Assembly: GCA_019635485.1 (NCBI GenBank)
Contig: JAHBZL010000010.1
Span: 60,420-124,419 of the forward strand
Origin: Piscinibacter sp.
GTDB taxonomy: Bacteria > Pseudomonadota > Gammaproteobacteria > Burkholderiales > Burkholderiaceae_C
Reading direction: 5' to 3'
Length of the DNA stretch: 64,000 bases
Shown: positions 54,885 to 62,443 of the stretch, in pieces
How the letters are laid out: the number at the start of each line of letters is the position of its first letter
Position numbering within the stretch: position 1 is the stretch's first letter
Made by a program: the position numbers and the translations under genes
The notes under the pieces: model-generated
The model's input: the letters and a program-made list of their open reading frames with translations, nothing else
What the model was told of the DNA's origin: nothing
Databases searched by the model: none

Positions 54885-55739
54885 TCAGCGCAGCGCGGCC
54901 AGTGCGTCGCGGGCGATCCCGACCAGCGGATCCAGCGCGCTCAGCGTTTCGGCGTCCAGCGGCCTCGGCGTGGAGTTGGGCGCGCTGATCGGGCGGCCCG
55001 GATCGGGGCGGAAGCTGTCCATCGCCGCGCGCACCGCCGCCACGTCGTCGGCCGGCAGGCCGGGCCGCGCCACGTACACCGGGCCCGGGATGCCGCCGAT
55101 CGTCGCCAGCACGCGATGCTGGCGCGGCGTGCTCGCCGGTAGGTCGCCGAGCTGCGTGCGCCCGGCGACCACCATCGCCACCTCGTCGCGGTCCAGCGCG
55201 TACAGCGCGCTGTTGATCGAGGGCTGGGCCAGCACCGTGACGTGGCCCGTCAGCCCCTGCTCGGCCAGCCAGCGGCGGCCGATCGTCGCCGTCAGCGACA
55301 GCGGGTCCAGCATGCCGGCCTGCCGCCCGCGCAGGTCGGCCGGTTCGCGCACGGGGCCGCCGTCCTTGACCACCACCAGCACGTCCAGCGCCTGCACCGT
55401 GCCGGCCACCTGCACGAACCCCCAGTCGAGCATCGCCAGCCGCGCCAGATGGGCCGGCAGCTGCACGATGTCGTGGTCGCCGCGACGCGTCTCCTCGATC
55501 AGGGTGCGGAAGTCCTTCGCGGTCACCATCTCGATCGGCCGCGCGAGGACCTGCTCCAGGTGTTCGCGCAGCCGCCGGTGAACCGCGAGCAGCACGGTCG
55601 GCGACAGGAACGGCGCCAGCGCGATGCGCAGCGGTGCGGCCGCCTGCGCCGGGCGGCCTGCGAGGAAGCTCAGCGCGGGCCCGCCCGCCAGCGCGGTCAC
55701 GGCGGCGAGCAGGGAGCGGCGGCGGTACGGGCGGTGCAT
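54885..55739 (-). CDS. PhnD-type periplasmic binding protein
   Basis: The 284-residue protein has a twin-arginine-like signal (YRRRSLLAAVTALAGGPALS...AQA) and the type II periplasmic fold of phosphate/phosphite/phosphonate binding proteins (RIALAPFLSPTVL, DHDIVQLPAHLARLAML, SLTATIGRRWLAEQGL). No permease or ATPase gene is nearby. It starts six bases after the hybrid kinase stop, so it more likely presents a ligand to the kinase than feeds a transporter. Confidence 0.8.
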   Translation of the reverse strand: MHRPYRRRSLLAAVTALAGGPALSFLAGRPAQAAAPLRIALAPFLSPTVLLAVHRRLREHLEQVLARPIEMVTAKDFRTLIEETRRGDHDIVQLPAHLARLAMLDWGFVQVAGTVQALDVLVVVKDGGPVREPADLRGRQAGMLDPLSLTATIGRRWLAEQGLTGHVTVLAQPSINSALYALDRDEVAMVVAGRTQLGDLPASTPRQHRVLATIGGIPGPVYVARPGLPADDVAAVRAAMDSFRPDPGRPISAPNSTPRPLDAETLSALDPLVGIARDALAALR

Positions 55740-55745
55740 CGCCGC

Positions 55746-58040
55746 TCAGGATAGCGGGGCCGGCGCCGTGGGGGCGAGCAGGCGGTCGGTCTCGGCCAGC
55801 AGCTGCGCCACGTCGACCGGCTTGGTCAGGTAGCGCTCGAAGCCGGCCTCGCGGGCGCGCTGGATGTCCTCGCGCATCGCGTTGGCGCTCAGCGCGATCA
55901 GCGGCAGGGTACGCGTCGCCGGATCGTCCTTCAGGCGGCGGCAGAGTTCGAGGCCGTCGATGCCGGGCAGGCCGATGTCGATGATCGCCAGGTCGAAGCG
56001 TTCACGCTGCGCCAGCGCCAGGCCCTCGAGGCCGTCGCGGGCCACCTGCACCTCGAGGCCCGGACGCAGCTCCAGCGCCTGACGCAGCAGCTCGACGTTG
56101 GACGGGTTGTCCTCCACGTAGAGCAGGCGTGCGCCGTGCGCAGAGTCGGCCATGGCGGCCGGCACGCGCGGCCGGGCGCCGAGCGTCGGGGCCTCGGCCA
56201 CCGGCAGCTCGACGTGGAAGGCCGAGCCGACGCCGGCACGCGACTCGACGGCCAGCGTCCCGCCCATCAGCTCGACGAGCCGGCGCGTGATCACGAGGCC
56301 GATGCCGGTGCCCTCGATCGCCTCGCCGGGCTGCTCGAAGCGCTGGAACGGCTGGTACAGGCGCTGCAGCTGCGACTCGGTGAATCCGCGCCCGGTGTCG
56401 TGCACCGAGACGACCGCGCGGCCGGCGGCGCCGGCGGCCAGGCGGACCTCGACCAGGCCCTCGCGCCGGTTGTACTTGACCGCGTTGGACAGCAGGTTGG
56501 CCAGCACCTGGCGCAGCCGCTTGCGATCGGCCAGCACCCAGACCGGGTCGCCCGGCGGCGGAGGCAGCAGCTGCACGGCGCGTTCGGTGGCCAGGGCCTG
56601 CACCATCGGCAGGCAGCCGGCCACCAGCTCGCGCAGCTCGACCGGTTCGGCCGAGGTGCTCATCGTGCCCGCCTCGATGCGCGACAGGTCCAGCACGTCG
56701 TTGATCAGTTCCAGCAGGTGCCAGCCGGCGGTCTCGATCTGGCGCACCTTGCGCAGCTCGCCCGGGGCATCCTTCTGCGACAGCGCGAGCAGCTGCGCGA
56801 ATCCGAGGATCGCGTTCAGCGGCGTGCGCAGCTCGTGGCTCATGCGCGAGAGGAAGTCGCTCTTGGCGTGGCTGGCCCGTTCGGCCACCTCCTTGGCGAG
56901 CTGCAGCTCGGCGGTGCGCTCGCCCACGCGGCGCTCCAGGGCCTCGTTGCTGTCACGCAGCTGCTGTTCGGCCAGCACGTGGCGCGTCACGTCGGTCACC
57001 GTCGCGACCACGGCGTAGGGCCGCGACTGCCCGGGGCGGAACAGCGGCGTCGCGTTGACGCTCACCCACACGGTGCTGCCGTCGGTGCGTTCGACCCGGC
57101 CGACCACGTCGCGCTGCGGCTCGCCCGTGGCCAGCGCCCGCGAGGTGGGGCGGTCCTCCAGCGCGGCCTCGCGTCCGTCGGCATGGAAGGAACGCGTGCC
57201 GCCGCGGCTCGTGCCGGAGGCGATGAACTCCTCGCGGGTCGTGCCGTACAGGCGCGCGAGCGCCTCGTTGCAGTCGAGCACGCGCAGGTCCGGCGCGATC
57301 ACCACCAGCCCTTCGGCCAGCGTGTCGATCACCAGCCGCAGATAGCGCTCGTTCTCCTGGCGCTGCGCGAGCTGGGCCTGCACCGCCTCGGCCATCAGGT
57401 TGAACGCGTTGGAGACGTCGTCCAGCTCGGTCACGCCGCTGGGCGGCAGGCGGGCCGACAGGTCGCCCGAGGCGACGCGGCGGCTCGCCTGCGCGAGCCG
57501 CGTGAAGCCGGCGGTCAGCCAGGCGGTGCCCAGCGCCAGCAGCAGCATGCCGGCGGCCAGCACGGCGGCGGCGATCGCGAGGCTGTTGCGCCAGAGGCGT
57601 TCGCGCGCGTCCAGCAGCGCGTCGGTCGGGATGCCGAAGCGCAGCTCGCCCAGCGGCTGGCCGGCCAGCACCACCGGCTGCGTGGTGCGCAGCAGCCGCG
57701 GCCGGGCGGCGTCGCCGGCGCTCGCGACGCGCTGCCCGCGGCTGTCGCTCACCTCCACGTACGCGAGGTGGCCGTCCTGCGTGTTGCCGGCCACCACTTC
57801 GGCGATCGTCGCGTAGTCGCGCGCGGCCAGCAGCGGGCCGATCGCGGCCACCAGCAGCGGGCCGTAGGCCTGCTGCTCGGCCTCGAAGCGTTCGTCGATC
57901 GCCTGCTGCATCAGGTGCTGGGCGTTCCACAGCAGCAGGCCCAGCATCGCGATGAAGACGGCGAAGCTGCCCAGGAAGTACTGGCCGCGCAGGGTTCGGA
58001 GCACAGGCGTCGAGGAGGGTCCGGCGCGATTGTCTGCCAT
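55746..58040 (-). CDS. Hybrid sensor histidine kinase (TM-HAMP-PAS-HisKA-HATPase-REC)
   Basis: This 764-residue inner-membrane kinase has helices at about 21-40 and 152-178 enclosing a 110-residue periplasmic sensor, a HAMP, a PAS domain (about 232-355), a coiled coil, HisKA with H402 in FLSRMSHELRTPLNAI, HATPase (N518 in LLSNAVKYN, DTGRGF, GTGIGL) and a receiver with D688 and K740. No phosphotransfer protein or DNA-binding response regulator follows. It is encoded with a PhnD-type protein and diverges from a SARP-like regulator. Confidence 0.92.
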   Translation of the reverse strand: MADNRAGPSSTPVLRTLRGQYFLGSFAVFIAMLGLLLWNAQHLMQQAIDERFEAEQQAYGPLLVAAIGPLLAARDYATIAEVVAGNTQDGHLAYVEVSDSRGQRVASAGDAARPRLLRTTQPVVLAGQPLGELRFGIPTDALLDARERLWRNSLAIAAAVLAAGMLLLALGTAWLTAGFTRLAQASRRVASGDLSARLPPSGVTELDDVSNAFNLMAEAVQAQLAQRQENERYLRLVIDTLAEGLVVIAPDLRVLDCNEALARLYGTTREEFIASGTSRGGTRSFHADGREAALEDRPTSRALATGEPQRDVVGRVERTDGSTVWVSVNATPLFRPGQSRPYAVVATVTDVTRHVLAEQQLRDSNEALERRVGERTAELQLAKEVAERASHAKSDFLSRMSHELRTPLNAILGFAQLLALSQKDAPGELRKVRQIETAGWHLLELINDVLDLSRIEAGTMSTSAEPVELRELVAGCLPMVQALATERAVQLLPPPPGDPVWVLADRKRLRQVLANLLSNAVKYNRREGLVEVRLAAGAAGRAVVSVHDTGRGFTESQLQRLYQPFQRFEQPGEAIEGTGIGLVITRRLVELMGGTLAVESRAGVGSAFHVELPVAEAPTLGARPRVPAAMADSAHGARLLYVEDNPSNVELLRQALELRPGLEVQVARDGLEGLALAQRERFDLAIIDIGLPGIDGLELCRRLKDDPATRTLPLIALSANAMREDIQRAREAGFERYLTKPVDVAQLLAETDRLLAPTAPAPLS

Positions 58041-58077: not shown

Positions 58078-58133
58078 TGCGGACTTGGCGATGCGCGCTC
58101 CGCCGGCGACCGTGGCGCCGGCCTGACGACGCG

Positions 58134-58168
58134 ATAACGCGCCGATAACGCGCCCGCCCGTACAACGG
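58134..58168 (+). promoter_or_regulatory. SARP-type promoter of the BTAD regulator gene
   Basis: A perfect tandem duplication of the 11-mer GATAACGCGCC (58134-58155) is followed by TACAACGG at 58161-58168. TAACGC starts at 58135 and 58146, and TACAAC is a plausible -10. Repeats one helical turn apart ending about nine bases before the -10 is the arrangement described for SARP activators. The same pattern recurs at 61496-61529. Confidence 0.7.
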
Positions 58169-58200
58169 CGCCACACCGTAGGATCCGGCATCTTCCTGCC

Positions 58201-61200
58201 ATGCAGCTGCGCCTCAGCCGATCGCCCGGGGGCTTCGATGCCGCCGGTCGCCCCGTGCCGCTCGGCATCCGCGATGCCGCGTTGCTGGCTTGGCTCGCGT
58301 TGGAGGGGCCGACCGCCCGCACGCGGCTGGCCGAGCTGCTGTGGCCCGGCAGCGGGCCGGAGGCGGCCCGCAATGCCCTGCGCCAGCGCCTGTTCCAGCT
58401 GAAGCGGCAGTTCGGGGCCGAGCTCGTGATCGGTGCGTCGGTGCTGTCGCTGGCCGACGGCGTGCGGCATGACCTGCACGAGGCCGACGAGGTGCTGGGC
58501 GACGGCGCCGACGGGCTGGATGGCGAACTGGCCGACTGGCTGGCGCGCCAGCGCGAGCGCCGCCGCGAGCGCATGCGCCTGTCGCTGGTCGACCTCGCCG
58601 AGGCCGCCGAGCGCGCCAGCGACTGGGCCGACGCGCTGACGCACGCGCGCGAACTGCTGGCGCTGGAGCCGGTCTCCGAGGAGGCCCACCGGCGGCTGAT
58701 CCGCCTGCACTACCTGGCCGGCGACCGCGCCGCGGCGCTGCTCGCCTTCGACCGCTGCGAGCAGGTGCTGAAGAACGAGGTCGGCACCCGGCCCGGCGCG
58801 GCGACGCTCGAGCTGCTGCGCACACTCGAGTCGGCCGCCGCGCCGAACCTTCCGGCCGCGGCCATGCCGGTGCCGGCCGCGATGCTGCGCCCGCCGCGCG
58901 TCGTCGGCCGCGGCGCCGAGATCGAACGCGCACTGCGCGCCTGGCGCGACGGCCGTGCCGTGCTCGTCGAGGGCGAGGCCGGCATGGGCAAGAGCCGGTT
59001 GCTGCAGGAGCTCGCCGCGCGGCGCGGCGACGCGGTCGGCGTGCAGGCGCGGCCGGGCGACGCGGTGGTGCCCTACGCCACGCTGGCGCGCCTGCTGCGG
59101 GCCCTGCTGGCGTCGGCCATCCCGGACGCCGCGGCCCGGCGGGCGCTCGCACCGCTGCTGCCGGAACTGGGGCTGCCCGGCGTCGCGAGCCCGCCGGGCA
59201 TGCTGGCGCCGGCGGTGGCCGCCGTGCTCGCCGGCGCGGCCCGCGCCGGCACCGGCATCGTGCTGGTGGACGACCTGCACTTCGCCGACGAGGCCAGCCT
59301 CGAGTTGCTGCTGCAGCTGGCGCGCGTCGACGCGCCCGACGCGCCGGGCTGGGGTTTCGCACGCCGGCCGGCCGAGGGCAGCGGCGCGCTGGCGCAACTG
59401 CACGACGCGCTGCTCGAGGAACAGCGCCTGGAGCCGGTCGTGCTGCAGCCGCTCGGCCCGGCGCAGCTGGCCGAACTGCTGCGCGGCCTGGACCTGCCGG
59501 CGGCGCAGATCGAACCGCTCGCGGCGCTGCTGCACCGCCACACTGGCGGCAATCCGCTCTACGCGCTGGAGACGCTGCGCCAGGCCTGGCACGAGACCGG
59601 GCTGGACGGCGTGCGCCTGCCGAGCCCGGCCAGCGTCACGCGCCTGATCGAGCGCCGCCTGCAGCGACTCTCGCCGGCCGCGATGCGGCTGGCGCGTTGC
59701 GCGGCGTTGGCCGGCGGCGATTTCGACATCGAGCTGGCCGCCGCGGTGCTGGCCGTGCCGGCGATCGACCTCGCCGACGCCTGGCGCGAACTGGAGCAGG
59801 CGCAGGTGTTCGCCGACGGCCTGTTTGCGCACGACCTGATCCACGAGGTGCTGCGCGCCGGCGTACCGCGCCCGATCGCGGCCCACCTGCACGGCGAGGT
59901 CGCACGCCACCTGGAAGCGCGCGCCGCGGCGCCGGCGGCGGTGGCCGACCATTGGCTGGCGGCCGGGCAGGCGGCGCGGGCGCTGCCGTTCCTGCGCCTG
60001 GCCGGCGAAGGGGCGCTGCGGCAGCGCCGCTTCGGCGAGGCGACCACGACCTTCGAGCAGGAGTGCCGGCTGCGTCTCGCCGAGGACGATGCCGGCGAGG
60101 CGTTCGAGGCGGCGCTGCGGATGCGCCAGGCCAGCTTCGAACTCGACCTCGCGGCCCGCACCGACGTTGCGCTCGATCTGCTCGAGCGCGCCGCGCGCAG
60201 CCCGGCGCAGCGGGCGCAGGCGCATGCCGAGCGCGCCATCGTCTCCGTGCACCGCGGGGCGATGGCGGACGCCGAGCGGGCGGCCGAGGCCGGCCTGGCC
60301 GCGCTCGGCGACGCGGACGAGCCGCTGCTGCGCGCGGACCTGCACCAGCATCTCGCGGCGGTCCGGCTGTGGCAGCTGCGCGCCGCCGAGGCGGGGGCGC
60401 TGCTGCGGTCGGTCGAGCAGGACGTGGAGACGCACGGCAGCGCGGCGCGGCGCTTCGAATTCGCGCAGGCGGCGGGCGTGGTGCACGAACACCTCGATCG
60501 GCCCACCGAGGCGGCCCAGTGGCAGCGGCGCGCCGTCGACCACGCGCTCGCGGCCGGTCTGCTGCCGGGGGCCGCGCAGGCCCTGCTCAACCTGGCGCTC
60601 GGCTGGCGCGACGCCGGCCGGCTGGACGAGGCGCTGGCCACGCTGATCGAGGCGCAGGCCCTGCTCGCCGGCCTGCCGGAAGGGGCGATCCCGTACTCCA
60701 GCCTGGATACCAACTTCGGCATCGTGCTGCGCGACCTCGGCCGCTACGACGAGGCGCTGCGCTGGCTGGACCAGTCGGTCGAGCGCGGCCGCGTGCACAT
60801 GCCGGGCTGGGTCGCGAACTTCCTCTGCCACCGCGCGCAGGCCTGGCTGGTGCTGGGTCAGCCGGCGCGCGCGCAGCAGGACCTGGACGCCGGGGCCGAC
60901 CCGGCCGCGCCGGCGCTGGCGCGCACGCGGCGCCAGCTGCTGCTGGCCCAGCTGCACATCCAGCTCCGGCAGGATGCGCACCCGGCGCTGGAGCGCGCCG
61001 CCGAGGCCCTCGGCACGCACGCACGAGCCCTGCTTCGCCAGCGCTACGTGCTGGCGCGCTGCCTGGTGCTCGATCCGGCCGACGCGCTGGCCGCCGCGGG
61101 CGGCGTGCTCGACGAGGCGCTCGCCGCGCAGCGCGACGGTCTGGCGGTGGCGGCCCGAACGCGCATCTGCCAGGCGCTCCTGGCCCTCGGCCACGAGGCC

Positions 61201-61476
61201 GAGGCCGCGCGCCAGGCGCGCCACCTGGCCGGAGTGCCGGCGACCGGCGGCTGCGACGAGCTGTACCGGGGCGAGGTCTGGCACACCGCCTGGCGCGCGC
61301 TGGAGCCGGTCGACCCGGCGGCGGCCGGGCAGCTGCTGGCACGCGCCGTCGCCTGGCTGCACACGACGCTGCAGCAGCACGTGCCGGAGCCGTTCCGCGC
61401 CGGCTTCGTCGAGCGCAATCCGAGCAATCGCGAACTGCTGGCCTGTGCGGCGCGGAGCGGCCTGACCGTAGCCTGA
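58201..61476 (+). CDS. SARP-like regulator: wHTH-BTAD-AAA ATPase-TPR
   Basis: The 1091-residue protein has an OmpR-like winged helix (about 15-95, with RTRLAELLWPGSGPEAARNALRQRLFQLK), a BTAD domain (about 120-210), a STAND/AAA domain with Walker A GEAGMGKS (258-265) and Walker B IVLVDDLH (353-360), and TPR-like repeats to the C terminus. It lacks a LuxR C-terminal helix-turn-helix, so DNA binding is by the N-terminal domain. Large SARPs of this kind are activators. It diverges from the kinase gene and carries candidate binding sites in its own promoter and that of the next gene. Confidence 0.87.
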   Translation: MQLRLSRSPGGFDAAGRPVPLGIRDAALLAWLALEGPTARTRLAELLWPGSGPEAARNALRQRLFQLKRQFGAELVIGASVLSLADGVRHDLHEADEVLGDGADGLDGELADWLARQRERRRERMRLSLVDLAEAAERASDWADALTHARELLALEPVSEEAHRRLIRLHYLAGDRAAALLAFDRCEQVLKNEVGTRPGAATLELLRTLESAAAPNLPAAAMPVPAAMLRPPRVVGRGAEIERALRAWRDGRAVLVEGEAGMGKSRLLQELAARRGDAVGVQARPGDAVVPYATLARLLRALLASAIPDAAARRALAPLLPELGLPGVASPPGMLAPAVAAVLAGAARAGTGIVLVDDLHFADEASLELLLQLARVDAPDAPGWGFARRPAEGSGALAQLHDALLEEQRLEPVVLQPLGPAQLAELLRGLDLPAAQIEPLAALLHRHTGGNPLYALETLRQAWHETGLDGVRLPSPASVTRLIERRLQRLSPAAMRLARCAALAGGDFDIELAAAVLAVPAIDLADAWRELEQAQVFADGLFAHDLIHEVLRAGVPRPIAAHLHGEVARHLEARAAAPAAVADHWLAAGQAARALPFLRLAGEGALRQRRFGEATTTFEQECRLRLAEDDAGEAFEAALRMRQASFELDLAARTDVALDLLERAARSPAQRAQAHAERAIVSVHRGAMADAERAAEAGLAALGDADEPLLRADLHQHLAAVRLWQLRAAEAGALLRSVEQDVETHGSAARRFEFAQAAGVVHEHLDRPTEAAQWQRRAVDHALAAGLLPGAAQALLNLALGWRDAGRLDEALATLIEAQALLAGLPEGAIPYSSLDTNFGIVLRDLGRYDEALRWLDQSVERGRVHMPGWVANFLCHRAQAWLVLGQPARAQQDLDAGADPAAPALARTRRQLLLAQLHIQLRQDAHPALERAAEALGTHARALLRQRYVLARCLVLDPADALAAAGGVLDEALAAQRDGLAVAARTRICQALLALGHEAEAARQARHLAGVPATGGCDELYRGEVWHTAWRALEPVDPAAAGQLLARAVAWLHTTLQQHVPEPFRAGFVERNPSNRELLACAARSGLTVA

Positions 61477-61495
61477 ATGCGGCGCGAAGGTGGCG

Positions 61496-61529
61496 TAACG
61501 CCCACCTAACGCCCCCGGGCCTACAACGG
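61496..61529 (+). promoter_or_regulatory. Second SARP-type promoter, before the 55-residue membrane peptide
   Basis: TAACGC at 61496-61501 and 61507-61512 (11 bp apart) is followed by TACAACGG at 61522-61529. Spacers of 5 and 9 bases equal those of the 58134 promoter, and spacer sequences differ, so conservation is confined to the motifs. It starts 20 bases after the regulator stop. Confidence 0.7.
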
Positions 61530-61581
61530 TGAGGCACGCAGGCTGGCATTTCCGCCGCGCCTGCCGAGAGAGGAGCCTGCC

Positions 61582-61749
61582 ATGCCGACCTCGCACCACC
61601 GCCACCGGCGACCGGCCTGGGAAGGCGACCTGCTGTTCCTGCGCTGGCTGGTGGCCATCGTCGCGGCCACGGCGGTGCTGGCGTTCGGCTGGCCGGACGC
61701 ACCGGCCACGGGCGCTGCGCCGGCGAAGGCCGCCGGCGGCAAGCGCTGA
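61582..61749 (+). CDS. 55-residue single-pass membrane peptide
   Basis: The frame starts ATG at 61582 with GAGGAG at 61570-61575. The peptide has a basic, His-rich N terminus (MPTSHHRHRRPAWEGD), one membrane helix (LLFLRWLVAIVAATAVLAFGW) and an Ala/Gly/Lys tail. I know of no family. Its promoter copies that of the SARP-like regulator, so it is likely to be a direct target. It might be a regulator of a membrane complex or a sensor partner; this is speculation. Confidence 0.65.
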   Translation: MPTSHHRHRRPAWEGDLLFLRWLVAIVAATAVLAFGWPDAPATGAAPAKAAGGKR

Positions 61750-61759
61750 GCGGCCGGCC

Positions 61760-62443
61760 TCAGGGCGCCGGCGGGCGCACGAAGATCTCGACGCGGCGGT
61801 TCTGCGCGCGGCCGGATTCGGTGCTGTTGTCGGCGATCGGCTCGTTCGGCCCGCGCCCGTCCTGCGACAGGCGCGACGGGTCGATGCCCTTGGAGGCCAG
61901 GTAGTTCGCCACCGAGCGCGCGCGATCCTGCGACAGGCGCTGGTTCAGCGCCGCCGAACCGGTGCTGTCGGTGTGGCCGATGATGGTGCCGGTCACGCCG
62001 CAGTATTCCTTGATCGTGCCGCCGACCGAGTCGAGCGTCGACGCGAACTCGGGGCTGATCTCGGCGCTGCCGGTCTTGAACATCACCGAGCCCGGGATGT
62101 TCAGCTTGACGGAGCCGTCCTGCTGCTCGGTCATGCCGATCATGGAGTTGTACTTCGAGCCGACCAGGGCCCCCGTCAGCGCCCCCAGCAGGATGCCGTT
62201 GCGCGCGCCGACGGAAGACTTCTTGGCCGCCGAACTGCCGATCAGGCCGCCGAGCACGGCGCCCGCCGCCGCACCGATCGCCGCGTTCTTGGTGTTCGAG
62301 TTGCCGCCGCCGCTGCCGCCCAGCGGCTTGCAGCCGCCGGAGGTGGACGAGATCTGCTGCGGCTGCTGCTGTTGCGGCATGGTCTGGCAGGCGGCCAGTG
62401 CCACGGTGGACAGGGTGATGACGGCGATTCGGCGCACGGACAT
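61760..62443 (-). CDS. OmpA-family outer-membrane lipoprotein
   Basis: The 227-residue protein has a lipoprotein signal (IAVITLSTVALAACQTM), a Gly-rich membrane-inserting segment (NAAIGAAAGAVLGGLIGSSAA, glycine-zipper like) and a C-terminal OmpA peptidoglycan-binding domain (IIGHTDSTGSAALNQRLSQDRARSV, NRRVEIFV). It anchors the outer membrane to the wall. GGGAGG precedes the ATG at 62443. It is convergent with the small peptide gene. Confidence 0.9.
   Translation of the reverse strand: MSVRRIAVITLSTVALAACQTMPQQQQPQQISSTSGGCKPLGGSGGGNSNTKNAAIGAAAGAVLGGLIGSSAAKKSSVGARNGILLGALTGALVGSKYNSMIGMTEQQDGSVKLNIPGSVMFKTGSAEISPEFASTLDSVGGTIKEYCGVTGTIIGHTDSTGSAALNQRLSQDRARSVANYLASKGIDPSRLSQDGRGPNEPIADNSTESGRAQNRRVEIFVRPPAP

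Follow-up and report, generated by a model that had tools for sequence, protein, structure and literature searches.

The small gene afsS adjoins afsR in Streptomyces coelicolor. According to PMC10936776, the product of the latter, AfsR, a protein of SARP-NOD-TPR order, switches on afsS; in its targets a weak -10 element is preceded by two direct repeats of 11 bp, its 22-bp box is centred at -29.5, the SARP dimer contacts the polymerase, residues T88 and R92 are reported as base-contacting, and the 3' repeat in SARP operators lies as a rule 8 bp from the -10. Large regulators of the PimR/SARP-LAL type combine a SARP domain with an ATP-binding part, and their heptamer repeats with 4-bp spacers again give a period of 11 bp (PMC5930380). 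A SARP-type domain is also present in EmbR of Mycobacterium tuberculosis, and OmpR/PhoB-type regulators share the winged helix, but have a receiver domain of their own. Among the open-access matches listed in our literature search, none, judged by title or the start of the abstract, dealt with SARP operators in Betaproteobacteria.

Here, we describe a 64,000-nucleotide window (the whole stretch of DNA that was analysed) in which, judged from sequence, the ORF 58201-61476 encodes a large AfsR-type SARP with a predicted SARP-type operator, in a member of the Burkholderiales. Our best explanation, to which we give a probability of roughly 0.85, is that this regulator acts on paired boxes to activate its own gene, the gene of a 55-aa peptide and, itself or through a paralogue, three remote genes. 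Domain order is that of AfsR. Unlike AfsR, the window's system uses the word TAACGC and has a box ahead of the regulator's own gene, its small neighbour is a predicted membrane peptide, and exported proteins are common among the other targets predicted for it. EmbR, unlike the window's regulator, has a C-terminal FHA domain (PMC10936776), and PimR differs in its word CGGCAAG, in the three repeats of its main operator and in serving polyene antibiotic genes (PMC5930380).

The regulator and its paired boxes

The features under discussion are as follows.

58135..58151, + strand: predicted SARP-type operator 1, TAACGC-N5-TAACGC, repeats at 58135-58140 and 58146-58151 (pattern scan, geometry scan)
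58161..58166, + strand: -10-like TACAAC of the regulator's own promoter (pattern scan)
58201..61476, + strand: large SARP regulator of 1091 aa, with SARP domain (wHTH + BTAD) at about 1-212, AAA/NOD-type ATPase at 233-377 and a C-terminal TPR-like region (ORF list, Pfam, profiles, AlphaFold model)
61496..61512, + strand: predicted SARP-type operator 2, TAACGC-N5-TAACGC, repeats at 61496-61501 and 61507-61512 (pattern scan, geometry scan)
61522..61527, + strand: -10-like TACAAC of the small gene (pattern scan)
61570..61575, + strand: Shine-Dalgarno-like GAGGAG, 6 nt ahead of the small gene's ATG (by eye)
61582..61749, + strand: ORF of 55 aa with one hydrophobic stretch (LLFLRWLVAIVAATAVLAF, mean KD 2.35) (ORF list, family scans)

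An earlier note on this DNA had claimed a large BTAD-AAA-TPR regulator of SARP type, and its SARP domain is borne out by Pfam, profile and structure comparison, its ATPase by Pfam. Pfam matched BTAD (2.7e-10) and AAA_16 (3.5e-16, residues 233-377), the latter being the NOD/AAA ATPase behind the SARP domain that is a trait of large SARPs. Trans_reg_C gave no Pfam match at E<=1, no receiver domain as found in OmpR-type response regulators was matched in the Pfam scan, and nothing exceeded the cut-off in the NCBIfam scan. A profile built from 30 N-terminal domains, with the window's regulator as lead sequence, spanned the whole SARP domain in AfsR chains (8hvr, 8k60, 8jke; E 1.9e-26 to 4.6e-25) and in EmbR (2fez; E 1.9e-26); designed TPR proteins also matched this profile, three of them scoring higher than AfsR and EmbR, but through the BTAD part only. 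For the C-terminal region, where TPR models scored under the Pfam cut-off, family profile A1 matched the TPR region of AfsR (8k60 700-989, E 6.9e-15) but also many other TPR proteins. The AlphaFold (AF2) model of the N-terminus (226 aa, pLDDT 93.8) returned six PDB matches at E < 0.001 in Foldseek, all of them AfsR or EmbR (the latter at E 5.2e-06), although the alignments, at 19-21% identity and TM 0.59-0.65, mark the distance from AfsR. Pfam, profile and Foldseek thus place an OmpR-like winged helix and a BTA(D) domain at the N-terminus, the arrangement that defines the SARP family. By profile alignment and hand count, T88 and R92 of AfsR align with Q62 and Q66 of the window's regulator, whose nearest named relatives are Rubrivivax, Aquabacterium and Aquincola records.

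The earlier note had further reported two promoter-like boxes of identical geometry, one of them upstream of the regulator's own gene, and this held in silico. Scanning the window with the pattern TAACGCNNNNNTAACGCNNNNNNNNNTACAACGG at <=3 mismatches, with 100 shuffles as control, gave exactly two matches to TAACGC-N5-TAACGC-N9-TACAACGG; they occupy 58135-58168 and 61496-61529 of the + strand and have 0 mismatches, whereas the shuffled windows (n=100) averaged 0.00 matches even at <=3 mismatches. The boxes agree at each of the 20 fixed positions and in the length of both spacers, as the note had said in arguing against simple duplication; since identity is 26/34 inside the box and 19/60 in each flank, plain duplication of one promoter was ruled out. 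The TACAAC of box 1 ends 34 bp ahead of the ATG of the 1091-aa ORF and that of box 2 ends 54 bp ahead of the 55-aa ORF. The proposed 11-bp period and SARP-like distance to the -10 were likewise recovered: the second repeat lies 9 bp from the -10 if counted as the hexamer TAACGC and 8 bp if counted as a heptamer, in keeping with the spacing of SARP operators. Direct repeats 11 or 22 bp apart are typical of SARP targets, which these boxes would then be for the adjacent regulator.

Recurrence of the box and its geometry

The same box recurs elsewhere in the genome (assembly of 5.0 Mb in 81 contigs, 84% complete, so that sites may be missing). At <=3 mismatches the 34-mer occurs four times, against 0 for its reversed control. 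Pairs of TAACG separated by 2 to 30 bases number six, five at N6 and one at N17; the reversed word GCAAT gave 28 in the same search, and because GCAAT is commoner than TAACG, spacing is a better control than the reversed word. None of the five N6 sites falls within a called gene, and each has a start on the same strand 51-72 bp further on (measured from the end of the second TAACG, with starts from an in-house gene caller). The remote three are as follows.

Contig C13: N6 site 54 bp before the gene of a 1240-aa exported RCC1/Ig protein; a second SARP paralogue comes next
Contig C14: N6 site 72 bp before the gene of a 398-aa exported RCC1-repeat protein
Contig C21: N6 site 56 bp before the gene of a 385-aa protein without Pfam match

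The genome holds three paralogues of the regulator, and at the one on contig C4 (L054) no such box was found, which counts against our explanation.

Across the family, the regulator was found at E<=1e-40 in 18 of 150 genomes (five candidates scored per genome). An 18-base motif with <=1 mismatch occurred in five of the 150, all five among these 18 (hypergeometric 1.4e-5), and its reversed control matched once in the 150. Exact TAACG-N6-TAACG was present at 36 sites in 15 of the 18 regulator genomes versus 68 sites in 43 of the 132 others (Fisher 5e-5, ignoring genome size); the pairs in those 43 genomes, which have no regulator at E<=1e-40, again speak against our explanation. In the 18 regulator genomes, 16 of the 36 N6 sites lie <10 kb from a regulator, where about 0.4 would be expected (hand count). 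As a yardstick for N6 counts in the family genomes GCAAT was dropped, being commoner than TAACG in most of them. A search of 40 chosen loci (620 kb) for exact pairs of TAACG spaced by 3-19 bases gave 17, every one at N6 and outside called genes. The earlier note had proposed a scan of this genome and related Burkholderiales for boxes clustering ahead of genes, and they do recur there, with five of five N6 sites outside called genes in the own genome. A genome of the same genus carries a relative of the regulator, 43% identical, with a box ahead of its gene (L018), and at a same-genus RCC1 gene (L113 compared with L019) box and TAGATT are kept and spacer bases changed.

Beyond the family, the regulator was matched eight times in one genome (G527), in some cases over part of its length. 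The C8 regulator of this genome is preceded by a box at its own gene, and the C4 locus (L237, G527:C4:214000-233900) holds four exact TAAC boxes, one with a mismatch and one TCAC box (4987); most genes behind these boxes start, by eye, with signal-peptide-like sequence, and the locus is perhaps a mini-regulon island. An order-wide scan of 399 genomes placed the box plus TANNNY in 22, and by itself shows nothing because the reversed control matched many of the same genomes. Of the 20 box-positive genomes from other families, two (G527 and G181) contained the regulator at E<=1e-20; the boxes of the remaining 18 are background or belong to different binders. Around distant relatives outside the Burkholderiales (70 loci, 933 kb) there was no excess of TAACG at N6 (three at N6, three at N7). 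A separate observation concerns two genomes of one genus in which TAACG-N6-TAACG with TAGAAT or TAAACT (L243 2631 and L244 2839) precedes a 79-codon gene (stop included) that looks Flp-type pilin-like by eye; no SARP was found there at E<=1e-20.

The geometry is more constant than the word. When 344 upstream regions were scanned for any repeated 5-mer, the counts without a -10 requirement were 240 at period 11, 224 at 12 and 253 at 18, which counts against our explanation, whereas with TA at the -10 place period 11 had 56, period 18 had 16 and no other period between 7 and 23 had more than 8 (range 0-8); the 56 represent fewer boxes, because 5-mers overlap. When a T-x-A-C core was required along with the -10, 30 matches fell at period 11 and 0-1 at periods 7-10 and 12-17. 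A further count covered 48 loci of related regulators, some chosen for holding a site, and took GTxACG repeats outside genes with two mismatches allowed and TA required at the -10: 40 boxes stood at period 11 and 2, 0, 0 and 0 at periods 9, 10, 12 and 13. By word these 40 were TAAC (29), TGAC (7) and TCAC (4), with constant geometry across loci. For the 36 loci fetched for the regulator alone (two overlap), there were 20 boxes in 19 loci, and 17 loci had none, a further point against our explanation. Two loci of genome G140 (L060, L061) with three SARP paralogues bearing LRQQ helices had no nearby box in the 48-locus scan.

The reader of the repeat word and rival explanations

To our reading, the repeat word is very probably recognised by the SARP domain, because the word tracks the tree of that domain and not the tree built from the remaining protein. 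Among 28 labelled regulators (2000 shuffles), the word needed five changes on the SARP-domain tree (shuffle mean 9.21, 0/2000 as few), six on the full-length tree (13/2000) and eight once the SARP domain had been removed from the tree (shuffle mean 9.19, 378/2000). With other label sets the shuffles as extreme were 0/1000 for full length (29 labels), and 288/1000 (27 labels) and 439/1000 (21 labels) with the domain removed, so that the outcome varies with label set and protein part. The test is support and not proof, since its rows share ancestry and its labels rest on neighbourhood. A strict one-residue code pairing the LRQQ helix with TGAC was dropped because L058, L071 and L072 carry LRQR with TGAC.

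Tandem repeats with a spacing of about 11 bp are also bound by the OmpR-type winged helix, and the main rival to our explanation is that an OmpR-type response regulator reads the box while the SARP gene is its neighbour by coincidence. In regulator-free genomes, OmpR-type genes do follow some N6 TAACG pairs (L086, L087, L245; by eye), with TTAACG as second repeat, and these pairs are possibly autoregulatory sites of an OmpR-type family. Signalling genes also lie near the boxes: a hybrid sensor histidine kinase/response regulator (55746-58040, - strand) is divergent from the SARP gene beside box 1, and about 6.5 kb separate a receiver-like gene from the C14 box (L019). We nevertheless hold this reading to be quite improbable, given that the word tracks the SARP-domain tree, that SARP loci also have boxes with the word TGAC or TCAC, and that, in the stretches inspected by eye, no OmpR-type (DNA-binding) response-regulator gene adjoins any of the five N6 sites of the own genome.

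The function of the bound regulator is a further point on which readings differ. Overlap of the box with the -35 place could block polymerase and make the regulator an autorepressor, which we consider unlikely: the -10 elements TACAAC and TAGAAC are without a -35 partner, which suits activation, and AfsR, of similar geometry, is an activator (PMC10936776). By eye, no TTGACA-like -35 is present at the regulator's promoter, the TAACGC repeats occupying that place, and this also bears on the possibility that the boxes are housekeeping promoters, constitutively active, whose repeat is fortuitous. Such promoters would share the near sigma-70 type -10, and gene order alone is compatible with them, but period 11 stands alone once the -10 is required and different words keep the same geometry, making this a very remote prospect.

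In the activation model that we prefer, by analogy with AfsR, two SARP domains would sit side by side, one on each TAACGC repeat, and the bound pair would stand in for the -35 element and bring RNA polymerase to TACAAC. This would activate the regulator's own gene and the adjacent gene for the 55-aa membrane peptide, and the regulator or a paralogue reading the same word may also activate the C14 RCC1-repeat gene, the C21 385-aa gene and the C13 RCC1/Ig gene. The ATPase and TPR parts would gate activation in response to a signal.

Predicted targets and neighbouring genes

The earlier note was right in its main points, but the predicted regulon is wider than it saw. Often the genes behind boxes encode putative exported proteins with RCC1, Ig or ZU5 domains; others code for small membrane peptides or for the regulators, and many of the proteins start, by eye, with a signal or lipoprotein sequence. 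In ten box-associated proteins chosen from more for a Pfam scan, seven had a match: RCC1 in three (two with Ig), ZU5 in three (one being an RCC1/Ig protein), and NHL, PD40 and RHS in one each; the three without include two small peptides of genome G143. This suggests that a SARP switch known from antibiotic-making bacteria serves surface proteins here. More tentatively, and at somewhat less than even odds, we propose a much-duplicated AfsR-like family in the Burkholderiales whose paralogues run small sets of surface proteins through private words at one promoter geometry, the SARP domain and its word evolving partly apart from the ATPase and TPR parts, as if reading heads had been exchanged. 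Such exchange, if true, would lead to a decodable SARP recognition code. Varied words at one geometry offer natural variation for working out how SARPs choose their DNA. If our explanation is right, it supplies an operator rule for deducing from sequence the regulons of many AfsR-like regulators that are still unstudied, and it means that SARP promoter geometry crosses phyla and is linked to surface proteins.

The small membrane peptide that the earlier note placed behind box 2 stands in part: the 55-aa ORF and its hydrophobic stretch are there, but no convincing relative was found in the 149 other family genomes, the same-genus genome included. Neither Pfam nor NCBIfam gave a match, and only the own genome matched well; matches in 11 other genomes (E 0.001-0.0094), mostly within longer frames, were judged chance, and conservation of the peptide was rejected. 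In G143 (locus L015), two small genes with one hydrophobic stretch each lie behind boxes and look analogous to the 55-aa gene. As for the other neighbours, the ORF at 54885-55739, next after the hybrid kinase gene, is substrate-binding-protein-like by eye, and 61760-62443 (- strand), convergent with the 55-aa gene, encodes what looks by eye like an OmpA-family lipoprotein with a glycine-zipper-like stretch.
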